Assembly (NCBI RefSeq): GCF_017052655.1
Contig: NZ_JAFIDC010000001.1
Location: 62,001-126,000, forward strand
DNA: 64,000 bases
From: Acholeplasma equirhinis
Lineage (GTDB): Bacteria; Bacillota_I; Bacilli_A; Acholeplasmatales; Acholeplasmataceae
Reading direction: 5' to 3'
Numbering within the stretch: the first letter of the stretch is position 1; every line of letters begins with the position of its first letter. Shown piece after piece: positions 3,553 to 19,009 of the stretch. The notes under the pieces were generated by a model. It was not told where the DNA came from. It made no database searches and saw only the letters and a list, made by a program, of their open reading frames with translations. The translations under genes and the position numbers were made by a program.

Positions 3553-3570
3553 GGGTATAAGGAGGGTTTT

Positions 3571-5238
3571 ATGAAAACCTTAGCATTTTTTAATACTAAA
3601 AAGTTACCGATTATCTTTTTAGCGGTTACTTTATTATTGTCTTTATTTGTTTTATACACACCAGGTGCATCAGCTAAAAATGACACGACTCAATTTAGTG
3701 CTGTACGTGCCCAAGAACATATTGAAGTAATTTCAAGAGAACCACATTCTTACTATGATCGTGATGCACACGAAGATGTAAGACAATATTTAATCTCAAC
3801 TTTAAGTGACTATTTAGGTCCTTTTAGAGTGACTGAGTTTAATTATACAGTCGATCAAGTTAAAACAGAGCTAGAAGCTAGTTATCCATCATTTGATCCA
3901 GATGAAGTTTTATATCCAGTTGAAAACGTCCTAGGTGTTTTACCAGGTGAAAACCCAGAAGGTATTATGTTAGTATCTCACTATGACTCAAGAGGTCATG
4001 TTGGAAGAACTGGTGAACAAGGTCGTTCATACGGTGCAATGGATGATGGTTATGGTGTTGGTACCATGTTAGAACTTGCATATCTTTTAAAAGATAGCAA
4101 TCCAAAGAACTCTATTTACTTCTTATTTACGGATGCAGAAGAGGTTGGACTCTATGGTGCAATCATGGCTGCAGCAGAACAAACATTAATGGATAATGTT
4201 AAATTCATTATTAATTTAGAGTCTCGTGGTAGTCATGGACCGGCTTATATGTTTGAAACATCTGCAAATAATGCAAAAGTTATTGATTTATACCGTAAAG
4301 CAAATTATCCAGTTACCTATTCAATGGCAACAGCAGTCTACGAGTTAATGCCTAACTTCACAGACTTTACACCACTCATGGAAACTGGTAAACCAGGTTT
4401 AAACTTTGCTGTACTTGCTGGACTTGATAATTACCATACACCTTTTGATCGATATGAATTTATAAATATCTCAAGTATTCAACATATGGGTTCTCAAATC
4501 GAACCAGTTATTAGAGAATTCATCAGTGATAGTAAATATATAGAAGATAATTACTTTACTGCAGATTCCAATCAAGTGTTCTTTACAATCTTTGCTGGTA
4601 TTATGATTAATTACTCGCAAGTTTTCGCAATCATTCTTGCGTTCCTATTACTTGTATTATTTGGATTTGTAACCTTCTTAAAGGTTAAAAATCAAACATT
4701 AACCAAAACAACCTTTACAAAGACCTTATTTAAAGGGTTATTGTTATTCTTATTGATGGTTGTCGTTGGTCTAATTTATGGATATGTTGTTGCATTCCTT
4801 GGTAAAGTGCCATTTAGTGTGACTTACACTAGAGTATCATTAACTGAAATACCAACAGCACTATTGATGATAGGACTTGCAGTCATTATGATTAAGAAAT
4901 TTAAATCATCAAATGATGATGCTTTATATATTGGTGTTATGTTTAATGTCTTATTAACATTAGTGACAACATTTACACTAGAAGGTGCATCATTCTTATT
5001 CGCTTTTACTGCACTGTTTGGATTAGTTGCAATATTTACAAACTATATTCCAAATAAACTAGCAAGACAGTTAGTATATGGTATATCATACGCATTTATT
5101 CTATTTATGTTAATCCCAATTCTTTATTCATTCTATAATGCATTAACAGTAGGTGGAACAGTTGTTTTAACAGTCTTATTAACAATAAATGGTTCAGTAG
5201 CTTTACCAATCATTAATAAACAATTTGTAGAAGAATAA
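3571..5238 (+). CDS. M28-family zinc aminopeptidase with C-terminal membrane domain
   Basis: 555 residues from the ATG at 3571, chosen because it follows AAGGAGG; an in-frame ATG at 3514 lies inside the promoter. Residues 12-30 are a signal anchor. The extracellular domain has the M28 co-catalytic zinc motifs: SHYDS (His137, Asp139), GAMDDGYG (Asp158-Asp159), TDAEEVGLYGA (Glu190 catalytic base, Glu191 ligand) and a YHTPFD His near residue 307. After residue ~335 there are about seven or eight hydrophobic helices, as in the ER-metallopeptidase-like branch of M28. It probably trims peptides at the outer membrane face. It is a single-gene unit with its own promoter/operator and the terminator at 5316. 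Confidence 0.88.
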   Translation: MKTLAFFNTKKLPIIFLAVTLLLSLFVLYTPGASAKNDTTQFSAVRAQEHIEVISREPHSYYDRDAHEDVRQYLISTLSDYLGPFRVTEFNYTVDQVKTELEASYPSFDPDEVLYPVENVLGVLPGENPEGIMLVSHYDSRGHVGRTGEQGRSYGAMDDGYGVGTMLELAYLLKDSNPKNSIYFLFTDAEEVGLYGAIMAAAEQTLMDNVKFIINLESRGSHGPAYMFETSANNAKVIDLYRKANYPVTYSMATAVYELMPNFTDFTPLMETGKPGLNFAVLAGLDNYHTPFDRYEFINISSIQHMGSQIEPVIREFISDSKYIEDNYFTADSNQVFFTIFAGIMINYSQVFAIILAFLLLVLFGFVTFLKVKNQTLTKTTFTKTLFKGLLLFLLMVVVGLIYGYVVAFLGKVPFSVTYTRVSLTEIPTALLMIGLAVIMIKKFKSSNDDALYIGVMFNVLLTLVTTFTLEGASFLFAFTALFGLVAIFTNYIPNKLARQLVYGISYAFILFMLIPILYSFYNALTVGGTVVLTVLLTINGSVALPIINKQFVEE

Positions 5239-5315
5239 CAAACTTAATAAATAATTCATTAGAATGAATAAGATATCAAAAGACAACTCGTTATATGCAT
5301 AATTTAAAGGAAAAG

Positions 5316-5346
5316 CATCTTCATATTTTTCAATGAAGATGTTTTT
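5316..5346 (+). terminator. Rho-independent terminator
   Basis: A 9-bp perfect stem, CATCTTCAT (5316-5324) with ATGAAGATG (5333-5341), 8-base loop, followed by TTTTT. It ends transcription from the M28 peptidase and insulates the downstream reverse transcriptase gene. Confidence 0.8.
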
Positions 5347-5427
5347 AATAAGAATAAAAAAAGAATGAAGTAAATCATATAATGTTAATTAATGAATTTT
5401 CACCTAAATATATAAAGGGGATTTAAG

Positions 5428-8112
5428 ATGAAAAATAATATCAATAATATTGTAATGAGTGCATACAATAAATTTAAATTTAGAGTTTACTATGATAACA
5501 ACTTGACCTTGTATAAAAAACAGTTAATAGAATTTGAAAGTAAAAATCTAAACAGTAAATTAGAAAAACTTTCCAAATTTTATGAAAATGATTTGCAAGA
5601 TGACAATTATCAAACGTATTTAATGGATCGAATCAACTTTTTCCCGTTTTATAAAAAGATTGATGAAAAAAATAATTTAGAACTAAATTACATGATTAAT
5701 GCTCCTATTGAAATTCATATATTAGATACCATTTGGACGATATTAATTTCAAAAAAATTACCATTTCATTCAAACAAATCCTTAACCTATGCGAATAGAA
5801 TAGATGTGAATAGGTTATTTAAATCTAAGAAAACAAAAGAAATAGATTGGGAAAGTAATTATTTGTTTGAACCTTATTCAAATGGATATAATCTATGGGT
5901 AGATAATACAGTTAATGAAATTAAAGATTCATTAACTAAGAAAAGCCAAATAACGTTAATAACTGCTGATTTTAAGAGATATTTTTATAATGTGATTAAT
6001 CCGTTTGACTGTTTAAATGAAATAATAAAAAAAAGTGATTCAAAAATAAAAGCAATAACAACTTTTCTCAATAAGTTGTATACCACGTATACTAAATCAG
6101 TAGATTTAATAACCAATAACATAGTGCACAGTGATCAAATTCTACCAATTGGGTTATCATCATCAAAAATATTATCAAATCTATATTTAGATTCATTTGA
6201 TCGTCATATTAAAGCTCAACCAAATGTATTATTCTACGGAAGGTATGTTGATGATGTGATGGTTATTTTTGATGGAAATGTAAATGAAAGTGAGTACATG
6301 AGGGCCGTTAAATCATTTATCGCTGAAAACAATATGATAATTGAATTAAACACAGAAAAAACTAAATCTTTCATATATGACCAAAGTAACTATGCAATTG
6401 AGATGAAAAAATTTAAGTTGTTTTTGGAAGAAAAAAACAACAATGGCTATTATGGACAAGACTCTGAAGAAGATCAATCCTTTAGAATGTATATAAGATT
6501 TGAGAAAAAAAGATTATCAAATGATTATTCTGAATACTCAAAAATAAAGGAGATTCATTTAAAAAACTTACCCTTATCAACAAGTTTGATTTATATGAAT
6601 TATATCTTTAATGATGTTGTCTATGATAACATTACAATTAATCAAATCTATTTAAAGATAAAATCATATTTGATGGATACAAGTATAACGAAAAGTACTT
6701 TATGGAAGGAGATTTTTCAATGGCTTCATATCTATGGGGACAATGAAAAATTTAATGAAATAAGTAATTTAATTGATCAACTGATCAAATCAAGATATGC
6801 ATTATCACTTGTAAATGTAAGAACCAAGAAAATTCGTCTTGTTAAGTCGAAACTTTCAAAGTCCTACCAAGAAATCAAATTAATTTCGATTGCATATTCA
6901 GAATTCAAAATAAATGGAAACACAACTATAAGTAAAGTAAGGGAAAATTTAATTAAATGCAAATTATTTAGACGAAAAAATCTCATTGAAGATTTAATTA
7001 AAAATTTTGATAATCTAAACGAATTTGATTTGAATAAAAATCTAACGGATTATTATAAAAATAATTTAAGTTTTGTCCATTTAAGTGATCTTATGCTCTA
7101 TGATCAATTAGTTAATATCTTCACTGGAAGATTAAAGCCTTTGAAAGATACAATCAATGATTACAAAAAAGTAAATAAAAAATATGATGATGAACAAATC
7201 CTTATAGAGACAAGTGAAAGTAATGGTTATCAGTATACTCAGATTAAAACTAATGTAAGTGAAAAAAATCAAAATTTTGTAGTTGGTCAACCACATATAA
7301 AAATTCCATATGAAGAATCAGAGATATTAAAAAATTTTGATTTTAAACCTACTTTTGATGAGACTGTTAAATTTATTGAGTGGTTTATTATGGCAAAACA
7401 TGACGATGCAAAACTTATTGTATTTCCAGAATTGTATGTATATCGAAATTGGATAAATATTTTGATTCAATTATCTAGATTATTGCAAATCAATGTTACA
7501 TTTGGACTTCAACCAACTATAGTTTCAAATCAATACTTCAACATTTTGATTTCAACATATTCATATGTAGATGGTAAAAAACATAGAAATTTATTTGTTA
7601 CCGCAAGACAAAAAAACACATATGCTTATCGTGAAAAAGAGTGGTGTAAGTCTCAAGGTATTATCTGTAAAGATCCTAGTAAAACAACTAACTTTATAGT
7701 TAAAAATAAGTCAGTATGGTTTGCTGATTATGTTTGTTTTGAAGTGACTGATATTTGGATGAGATCATTGTTTAAAAATTTAGCTGATTTAATTGTTATA
7801 CCAATGTTAAATCATGATACTCGTTACTTTGATAACATTATCCAATCTTTAAGTCGTGATTTATCATGTATAGTAATTACATCTAATTCTGCTTCATGGG
7901 GAAATTCAAGTATCATCTTACCTAAATCTTCAAATATGAACGTTTTAACTGAGTTTAAAGGTGGTAAAAATTATTTTGTTACCAGTGCAATTCCAATCTA
8001 TGAATTAATAAAGTATAACTCAAATCCGGGATTATATAATGGTACAGATGGAAAAATGTTCAAACTACACTCAGCAAATTATAAACAGAAAAAATACATG
8101 ATAAAAGCTTAG
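5428..8112 (+). CDS. Reverse transcriptase-nitrilase fusion, defence-associated RT type 1 (UG1-like)
   Basis: 894 residues. RT motifs: A as TADFKRYFYNV (179-189, Asp181), B as ILPIGLSSSKILSNLYLDSF (238-257), C as YVDD (273-276, two catalytic Asp), D as ELNTEKTK (306-313). Residues ~330-630 are largely helical and Lys/Asn-rich, consistent with the alpha-helical region of Abi/UG-group RTs. The C terminus (~630-890) is a carbon-nitrogen hydrolase (nitrilase) domain: FPELY (Glu668), ARQKNTY (Lys729), DYVCFEVTD (Cys770), so the Glu-Lys-Cys triad is present. RT-nitrilase fusions are the hallmark of UG1, known as DRT type 1 anti-phage systems; UG5 is an alternative. No maturase, endonuclease or group II intron is present. 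The gene stands alone between terminators, with AAGGGG before its ATG, and looks more A-rich than its neighbours, suggesting transfer. Confidence 0.88.
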   Translation: MKNNINNIVMSAYNKFKFRVYYDNNLTLYKKQLIEFESKNLNSKLEKLSKFYENDLQDDNYQTYLMDRINFFPFYKKIDEKNNLELNYMINAPIEIHILDTIWTILISKKLPFHSNKSLTYANRIDVNRLFKSKKTKEIDWESNYLFEPYSNGYNLWVDNTVNEIKDSLTKKSQITLITADFKRYFYNVINPFDCLNEIIKKSDSKIKAITTFLNKLYTTYTKSVDLITNNIVHSDQILPIGLSSSKILSNLYLDSFDRHIKAQPNVLFYGRYVDDVMVIFDGNVNESEYMRAVKSFIAENNMIIELNTEKTKSFIYDQSNYAIEMKKFKLFLEEKNNNGYYGQDSEEDQSFRMYIRFEKKRLSNDYSEYSKIKEIHLKNLPLSTSLIYMNYIFNDVVYDNITINQIYLKIKSYLMDTSITKSTLWKEIFQWLHIYGDNEKFNEISNLIDQLIKSRYALSLVNVRTKKIRLVKSKLSKSYQEIKLISIAYSEFKINGNTTISKVRENLIKCKLFRRKNLIEDLIKNFDNLNEFDLNKNLTDYYKNNLSFVHLSDLMLYDQLVNIFTGRLKPLKDTINDYKKVNKKYDDEQILIETSESNGYQYTQIKTNVSEKNQNFVVGQPHIKIPYEESEILKNFDFKPTFDETVKFIEWFIMAKHDDAKLIVFPELYVYRNWINILIQLSRLLQINVTFGLQPTIVSNQYFNILISTYSYVDGKKHRNLFVTARQKNTYAYREKEWCKSQGIICKDPSKTTNFIVKNKSVWFADYVCFEVTDIWMRSLFKNLADLIVIPMLNHDTRYFDNIIQSLSRDLSCIVITSNSASWGNSSIILPKSSNMNVLTEFKGGKNYFVTSAIPIYELIKYNSNPGLYNGTDGKMFKLHSANYKQKKYMIKA

Positions 8113-12404: not shown

Positions 12405-12433
12405 TTGATATCTATTGTTTGCATATCTATAAT
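12405..12433 (+). promoter_or_regulatory. Promoter of riboswitch-phnDCEE transcript
   Basis: TTGATA (12405-12410), 17-bp spacer, TATAAT (12428-12433). It lies about 20 bases upstream of the riboswitch aptamer. Confidence 0.85.
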
Positions 12434-12451
12434 AAGGGTAGTATCAAATGT

Positions 12452-12519
12452 AATGTATAATCAACCAGATGTTCGGTGGTTAAGTCTCTACCTGGGTGCC
12501 GTAATACCTAGACTACATT
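12452..12519 (+). ncRNA. Purine riboswitch aptamer, guanine type
   Basis: The three-way junction core of the xpt-pbuX purine family is present. P1 pairs AATGTA (12452-12457) with TACATT (12514-12519); J1/2 is TAATC; P2 pairs AACCA with TGGTT; J2/3 TCTCTACC (12485-12492) corresponds to the UUUCUACC core with only the flipped-out position changed; P3 is CTGGGT/ACCTAG with L3 CCGTAAT; J3/1 reads GACTAC. The base equivalent to xpt C74 is C (12513), the guanine/hypoxanthine specificity, and the position equivalent to U51 is T (12489), arguing against the 2'-deoxyguanosine variant. P2 is shorter and its loop longer than in xpt. Confidence 0.88.
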
Positions 12520-12560
12520 CGTTTATATCCAATTTTTTCAGATGAATGTATTTTGACTTT

Positions 12561-18433: not shown

Positions 18434-19009
18434 ATGGAAATAATCAATGGACATCAAGTAGAGTTTGATGAAATTAATCATATCTACTATGTAGATGGCA
18501 AAGAAGTACCATCTGTCAGTCAAATATGTAAACTAGATAATCCTTCAATGTATCAAGGTATTGATAAACAAGTTTTAAACATGGCTGCACAAAAAGGTGT
18601 CAATTTACATAAAATCATTGAAAACTATGAACAAAATGGAATTATTCAAAAAGGTAGTATCGAACTTCAAAACTATATTCAAATGAAAAAGAAATACCAA
18701 ATCAATCAGAAACTTTCTGAACGCATGGTTCTGATTGAATTAGACGGAAAAGTTGTTTGTGCAGGTCGATTTGACTTACTGGGTGATATTGGAGGAATTC
18801 CTGCATTAATTGACTTTAAAAGAACCAGTGAACTACATACAAAGTATGTCAAACTACAACTTAATTTGTATGCATTAGGACTGATGCAAAGCTATGGTGA
18901 GATTGTAGAAAAACTGATGGTCATAAGACTGAGATATTTTGAGGTTGAAGTATTAGAATTTGAACTTGACTTTGATTACACAGTTGAAACTTTAAGAAAG
19001 TACATTTAA
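18434..19009 (+). CDS. Lone PD-(D/E)XK-superfamily nuclease
   Basis: 191 residues. A RecB/lambda-exonuclease-like core is visible: a His in KGVNLHKIIENY (helix 1), AGRFDLLGDI (Asp), ALIDFKRT (Asp-x-Lys, metal and catalytic residues) and KLQLNLYALGLM (QxxxY helix). This is the Cas4/phage-exonuclease type of metal-dependent nuclease, expected to cleave DNA. The N terminus (VEFDEINHIYYVDGKEVPSVSQI) resembles phage-encoded members. No cas genes, repeats or phage structural genes surround it, so a former phage gene or a stand-alone repair or defence nuclease are both possible. ATG 18434 follows AAGGAG. Confidence 0.8.
   Translation: MEIINGHQVEFDEINHIYYVDGKEVPSVSQICKLDNPSMYQGIDKQVLNMAAQKGVNLHKIIENYEQNGIIQKGSIELQNYIQMKKKYQINQKLSERMVLIELDGKVVCAGRFDLLGDIGGIPALIDFKRTSELHTKYVKLQLNLYALGLMQSYGEIVEKLMVIRLRYFEVEVLEFELDFDYTVETLRKYI

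Follow-up and report, generated by a model that had tools for sequence, protein, structure and literature searches.

A divergent UG5-type reverse transcriptase-nitrilase of Acholeplasma equirhinis with an apparently altered priming loop

A stretch of 64,000 nucleotides from Acholeplasma equirhinis (the window; contig NZ_JAFIDC010000001.1, positions 62,001 to 126,000) carries a gene in which a reverse transcriptase (RT) is fused to a nitrilase. The first-pass annotation had assigned the protein to UG1, the class of DRT type 1, and had named UG5 as the alternative. This raised the question of which class the protein belongs to and how it might act. The gene is an uninterrupted open reading frame from an ATG start to a TAG stop and is present as a single copy in the genome of 1.45 Mb (7 contigs). 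Its features are collected in Table 1.

Table 1. Positions of the RT-nitrilase gene, its flanking signals and the coded features, numbered from the first nucleotide of the window
Feature	Position	Strand	Basis
Terminator-like hairpin with T-run, in the gap that separates the RT gene from the M28 peptidase gene	5311..5346		z -4.9
Shine-Dalgarno-like AAAGGGG, 7 nt 5' of the ATG	5414..5420	+	read in the sequence
RT-nitrilase fusion gene (UG5-large type), 894 aa	5428..8112	+	ORF, PADLOC profiles, tree
RT motif A, catalytic Asp181	5968..5970	+	invariant in UG5 and UG1
RT motif B, PIGLSSS (240-246)	6145..6165	+	sequence alignment
RT motif C, YVDD (273-276)	6244..6255	+	D275 and D276 invariant
Loop predicted to be disordered (residues 338-348), where DRT1 has its priming loop	6439..6471	+	pLDDT under 50
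Tyr341-Tyr342, candidate priming residues	6448..6453	+	YY in 5/5 clade members
Middle domain, mostly helical, about residues 375-590	6550..7197	+	AF2 secondary structure
Nitrilase (CN-hydrolase) domain, residues 612-892	7261..8103	+	AF2 model, Foldseek, structure alignment
Nitrilase Glu668	7429..7431	+	invariant in 21 UG5 proteins
Nitrilase Lys729	7612..7614	+	invariant in 21 UG5 proteins
Nitrilase second Glu, Glu736, fourth tetrad residue	7633..7635	+	at least 90% conserved in 21 UG5 proteins
Nitrilase nucleophile Cys770	7735..7737	+	invariant in 21 UG5 proteins; aligned with DRT1 C1116
C-terminal lid motif K879-L-H-S-A883	8062..8076	+	aligned with the DRT1 K1219/A1223 motif KxxPAGF

The class was examined with the PADLOC profiles and with a tree, as the first-pass annotation had proposed. 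The best profile was RT_UG5-nitrilase (346 bits, E 1e-103), followed by a second UG5-nitrilase model (E 1.3e-60), RT_UG5_small (E 1.4e-28) and Drt1a (E 7.9e-26, 88 bits). In a tree of 27 mostly full-length proteins, with UG1 as the only outgroup, the four UG1 proteins were separated from all UG5 proteins including the window protein with a support of 100/100. A tree of the RT domain only agreed with the UG5 placement, with weak support and long-branch warnings. Inside UG5, the window protein and four homologues formed a clade, again with 100/100, here termed the window clade. The closest members are 35-37% identical (L055, L003 and L054 of the genomes G009, G043 and G338) and the fourth is L048 (G258). 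Judged by its sequence, the protein belongs to the UG/Abi defence RTs, in which it is a UG5, single-gene class-3 (UG5-large) RT-nitrilase and not UG1/DRT1. According to Sharifi and Ye (PMC8934634), a nitrilase is fused to the RTs of class 1 as well as of class 5, and the class-3 proteins of Neville et al. 2026 are named DRT1, DRT5S and DRT5L (PMC13275509). Since DRT5S and DRT5L are class 3 in that paper, whose text does without the word UG5, we take them as UG5-small and UG5-large, and the window type is probably their DRT5L.

The N-terminal part of the protein matched Pfam RVT_1 above the cut-off (E 1.4e-12). When 21 UG5 proteins were compared, the catalytic residues D181, D275 and D276 were invariant, and the whole of motifs B and C and the motif-D Lys311 were invariant or nearly so, which confirms the motifs A to D read previously. 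Together with the middle domain, the RT part matched AbiA, AbiK, DRT4 and DRT9 in Foldseek.

The nitrilase was checked by structure because the match to Pfam CN_hydrolase alone was below the cut-off (E 0.23). An AlphaFold2 model was built from 19 sequences (pLDDT 80.9, pTM 0.81), and its residues 612-892 aligned to solved CN-hydrolases with Z 22.1 and an rmsd of 2.9 A over 228 residues at 12% identity; Foldseek gave E 2e-9 for the same part. In the model these residues are a nitrilase fold with the tetrad E668-K729-E736-C770, far beyond chance. Of the two checks suggested for this domain, the profile search therefore stayed sub-threshold and the structure prediction returned the nitrilase. The residues Glu668, Lys729 and Cys770 had been numbered correctly by the first-pass annotation, and Glu736 is added here. 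A fold search in a library up to April 2026 did not have the DRT1 structure 9YFD among its matches, which has no bearing on the fold. From the conserved RT catalytic residues and the nitrilase tetrad, both active sites are intact by sequence, as had been claimed.

The first-pass annotation had stated that the action of the nitrilase in defence is not established. This holds for the nitrilase substrate, but DRT1 itself was solved in 2026 (PMC13275509). In DRT1, DNA adducts drive the assembly of tetramers and filaments, and the C-terminal tail with K1219 and A1223 caps the nitrilase pocket; the mutation of K1219/A1223 abolishes defence, which also depends on C1116 and on the RT site and is abortive (PMC13275509). 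Purified DRT5S and DRT5L make covalently attached DNA without a template, so protein-primed untemplated synthesis is documented for DRT1 and DRT5S/L, and the filament, the lid and abortive infection for DRT1 only (PMC13275509). The window protein can be tied to the DRT1 scheme because C770 corresponds to C1116, the tail residues K879 and A883 line up with the essential K1219 and A1223, and a loop after the palm that is predicted to be disordered lies at the Ser402 site. The C-terminal Lys was kept in most UG5 proteins examined and the Ala at the position of A883 in 14 of 21.

On this basis we propose that a hydroxyl residue in the flexible loop after the palm would be the acceptor to which the RT attaches a short DNA chain made without a template, and in the window clade this residue would most likely be Tyr341 or Tyr342. 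The DNA adduct would drive the assembly of nitrilase tetramers, possibly of filaments, which would stay dormant as long as the C-terminal tail (K879/A883) caps the pocket. Phage infection would release the lid, for which a phage ssDNA helicase is involved in DRT1. Cys770 would then hydrolyse an essential amide, nitrile or amine compound, and the cell would be stopped before the phage is released. The family, the predicted fold, the intact active sites, the conserved lid motif and the conserved Tyr pair are established here; the whole mechanism of the window protein and the Tyr priming site are what we infer from the comparison. We consider it fairly probable that the protein is a single-gene class-3 (UG5-large) defence RT that acts in this way, and the gene is likely to serve in anti-phage defence.

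To locate the priming site, the region behind motif D was compared. In the window protein, the motif-D Lys K311 (K373 in DRT1) is followed in the AF2 model by a helix (322-337) and by the disordered loop 338-348, and the Ser402 of DRT1 sits where this loop is found. DRT1 residues 382-478 are unresolved in the structure (PMC13275509). The window protein has no Ser at the place corresponding to Ser402, as far as the approximate alignment of the loop goes. All 16 other UG5 proteins that were compared had a Ser 26-27 residues past the motif-D Lys (in SSE, PSQ, ASE and similar contexts), a feature noted in the present comparison and not a published UG5 criterion. This Ser was found in 0 of 5 proteins of the window clade, which all have Tyr-Tyr 29-31 residues past the motif-D Lys. 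L008 and L129, two divergent UG5 proteins, do not enter this count since their loops could not be aligned with confidence; both have a Ser nearby. Four UG5 proteins from viral contigs (L170-L173), fetched after the pattern had been noticed, all had the Ser.

The placement is supported by the AlphaFold model of a Maribacter UG5 protein, in which Ser372-Ser373 start a disordered stretch (372-385) after a helix (358-370), matching the position of Y341-Y342 in the window protein. The UG5 Ser is a near-equivalent of the DRT1 S402, a few columns off and not strictly the same residue, and S402 is not conserved in other class-3 DRTs (Neville et al., PMC13275509). Tyr priming has a precedent in related RTs, since two Tyr residues that lie close together serve for priming in DRT9 (PMC12483538). 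In the literature searched, no priming residue was reported for any UG5 protein. The pattern suggests that most UG5 RTs prime from the conserved Ser and the window clade from Tyr341 and/or Tyr342; as the clade has five members, it comes from few independent lineages. An early reading of six sequences, in which Y342 seemed invariant across UG5, was dropped when more sequences showed the Tyr pair to be a feature of the clade. The UG5 protein L006 (G191) has both the conserved Ser and Tyr-Tyr at residues of about 366-372 and is a possible intermediate between the two forms.

The priming residue is the point at which an alternative survives best. The protein could be of the same class with the same nitrilase effector and prime from another residue, for example Ser351, Tyr355 or one outside the loop, the Tyr pair being structural. 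Several hydroxyl residues lie in or near the loop, and the four full-length proteins of the clade all share S351 and Y355 as well, but these two are further away from the positions of DRT1 S402 and of the UG5 Ser. Moreover, Y341-Y342 lie in the stretch of lowest confidence, where invariance is unexpected unless it is functional. We consider this alternative unlikely, though it deserves attention, and keep the Tyr pair as the preferred candidate.

So far, the window clade is known from five genomes, which belong to Acholeplasma and to related lineages of Bacilli. Its member L048 (L048:4654-6588, the same gene as L135:12653-14587, in G258) has 644 residues and no nitrilase domain, and no nitrilase remnant was found near its gene in the contig of 17.7 kb. 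Because the domain is missing, the RT may have another role there, a hint that a different effector can be combined with the primed-DNA module. It is conceivable, and we put it forward tentatively, that this UG5 clade has moved the priming site of the RT-nitrilase from Ser to Y341-Y342 in the same loop, with L006 as an intermediate, and that one member has shed the nitrilase. The general kind of protein is already known; the new element is a rare and divergent clade whose priming loop is apparently altered.

The genomic setting was analysed next to the distribution of the gene. The RT-nitrilase gene is flanked by a gene for an M28 peptidase on one side and by the GNAT gene of a GNAT-ogt-znu-fur block on the other, with groESL to the left, and lies outside any defence island. 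The M28 family peptidase with membrane segments (3568-5238, +) adjoins the RT gene, and no copy of it was found in the rest of the genus (seven genomes). On the right, the block is kept in the relatives, the left side is not, and groESL is elsewhere there; for this reason the RT and M28 genes are placed at a rearranged junction. When the site was compared with the empty site of the relatives, no precise insertion boundary could be drawn. The claim that the gene is flanked by its own terminator holds for the upstream side, where the stable fold is the terminator hairpin, and fails for the 3' side, where a terminator-like hairpin was looked for and none found. For an associated ncRNA, no Rfam match above threshold was obtained near the gene. 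The GC content of the gene is 25% against about 33%, but its GC3 of 0.21 is normal for the window (0.12-0.24). A horizontal import deduced from the low GC was rejected, as the GC3 is ordinary and genes of the glycosyltransferase type in the window are equally AT-rich. Elsewhere in the window, a purine riboswitch (12433-12535, +) lies directly 5' of an operon for an ABC transporter of the phosphonate type (from 12578 on), which is an odd combination for the annotated substrate class.

Within the genus, none of the other seven genomes has the gene, and strong UG5 matches were found in 4 of 160 genomes of the order; its distribution is sporadic. A first genome scan with a single sequence as the query had found nothing. 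Close relatives were sought in phages, with none found, and in plasmids, where all matches were distant. When viral contigs were scanned with the single protein or with the alignment of the clade, nothing full-length came up; with a broader UG5 alignment three full-length UG5 RT-nitrilases (L170, L172 and L173) were found on IMG/VR contigs, so UG5 genes may travel on phages or prophages. In the fourth viral UG5 locus (L171:4980-7788) the RT reading frame ends at 646 residues and the alignment match continues to the end of the nitrilase, which suggests a split or frameshifted two-gene form. Three relatives of the window gene lie beside known defence genes. Genes around the homologues code for a TIR protein resembling ThsB and its PDC-M50A partner, for a cytosine methyltransferase accompanied by a candidate restriction protein of the HNH type, and for a protein of the GmrSD type, a subunit of type I restriction and AbiO/Nhi. 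These neighbours are circumstantial support for a defence role. In our literature search, no paper connected a defence-associated RT to Acholeplasma.

A domesticated or housekeeping RT-nitrilase with no use in phage defence would agree with a single gene of typical GC3 outside a defence island. The absence from the rest of the genus, the few occurrences in the order, the defence genes beside three relatives and the UG5 genes on viral contigs speak against it, and we regard this as improbable. A little less credible still is a multi-gene system with a PD-(D/E)XK exonuclease as partner. The window contains a phage-type exonuclease of this kind (phrog_298, 18434-19009, +), which none of the other seven genomes in the genus has. 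In G009, a homologue (43% identity) follows the RT at a distance of 46 bp, and a gene upstream of the RT in G338 weakly matches PADLOC RTasPDDEXK (E 1.4e-6). In the window, however, the exonuclease is 10 kb from the RT, and of the 15 genomes that have the exonuclease family, the other 13 gave no match to a UG5 RT. The protein looks like a phage recombination exonuclease, and DRT1 defends alone. The co-occurrence is too weak to claim a partnership and was kept as a lead only.

The DRT type 1 (UG1) label was controlled with a true DRT1, L100 of a Photobacterium plasmid, which scored 1890 bits with Drt1a and 124 bits with UG5. The window protein shows the reverse order. It shares the domain order with DRT1, the Drt1a profile does match, and the DRT1 structure 9YFD is the best PDB sequence match for the UG5 profile (E 3e-30, two stretches). 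Nevertheless, the profile scores, the control and the split in the tree support UG5, and the window protein is about 335 residues shorter than DRT1. The headline class of the first-pass annotation was therefore given up, and a UG1 system is very improbable. That the RT stems from a retron, a group II intron or another mobile element and has gained an extra domain, as hinted at by the weak retron and intron RT matches that any RT gives, is hardly credible at all, since no maturase and no Rfam RNA match above threshold was seen near the gene, the UG5 profile covers both the RT and the nitrilase, and UG5 proteins of several phyla have inherited the nitrilase together with the RT; here the first-pass annotation had judged correctly.

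Few class-3 defence RTs have been studied as little as the UG5 RT-nitrilases, and the comparison yields a specific prediction, Ser in most UG5 proteins and Tyr-Tyr in the window clade at one place of the loop, which is directly testable. With the typical UG5-nitrilase RTs the window protein has in common the domain order, the RT motifs, the nitrilase tetrad, the C-terminal K motif and the position inside UG5. It differs from them by an identity of about 20-24%, by 346 bits against 618-1034 for the typical members scanned, and by Tyr-Tyr in the place of the conserved loop Ser. With DRT1/UG1 (9YFD, PMC13275509) it shares the RT and nitrilase in one chain, the KxxxA motif of the C-terminal lid and the flexible loop after the palm, whereas DRT1 belongs to a separate clade (100/100), is about 335 residues longer and primes from Ser402. 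The K motif common to UG1 and UG5 suggests that the control by a lid is ancestral to the nitrilase-type DRTs. The CN-hydrolases and amidases (2e11, 6i00, 2uxy) resemble residues 612-892 in fold (Z about 22) and in the tetrad residues, but they are stand-alone metabolic enzymes with 11-17% identity. The protein-primed RTs DRT9 and AbiK share Tyr-primed DNA synthesis with the mechanism proposed here, in DRT9 from a close Tyr pair; they have no nitrilase, their Tyr is elsewhere in the chain, and DRT9 needs an ncRNA template (PMC12483538).
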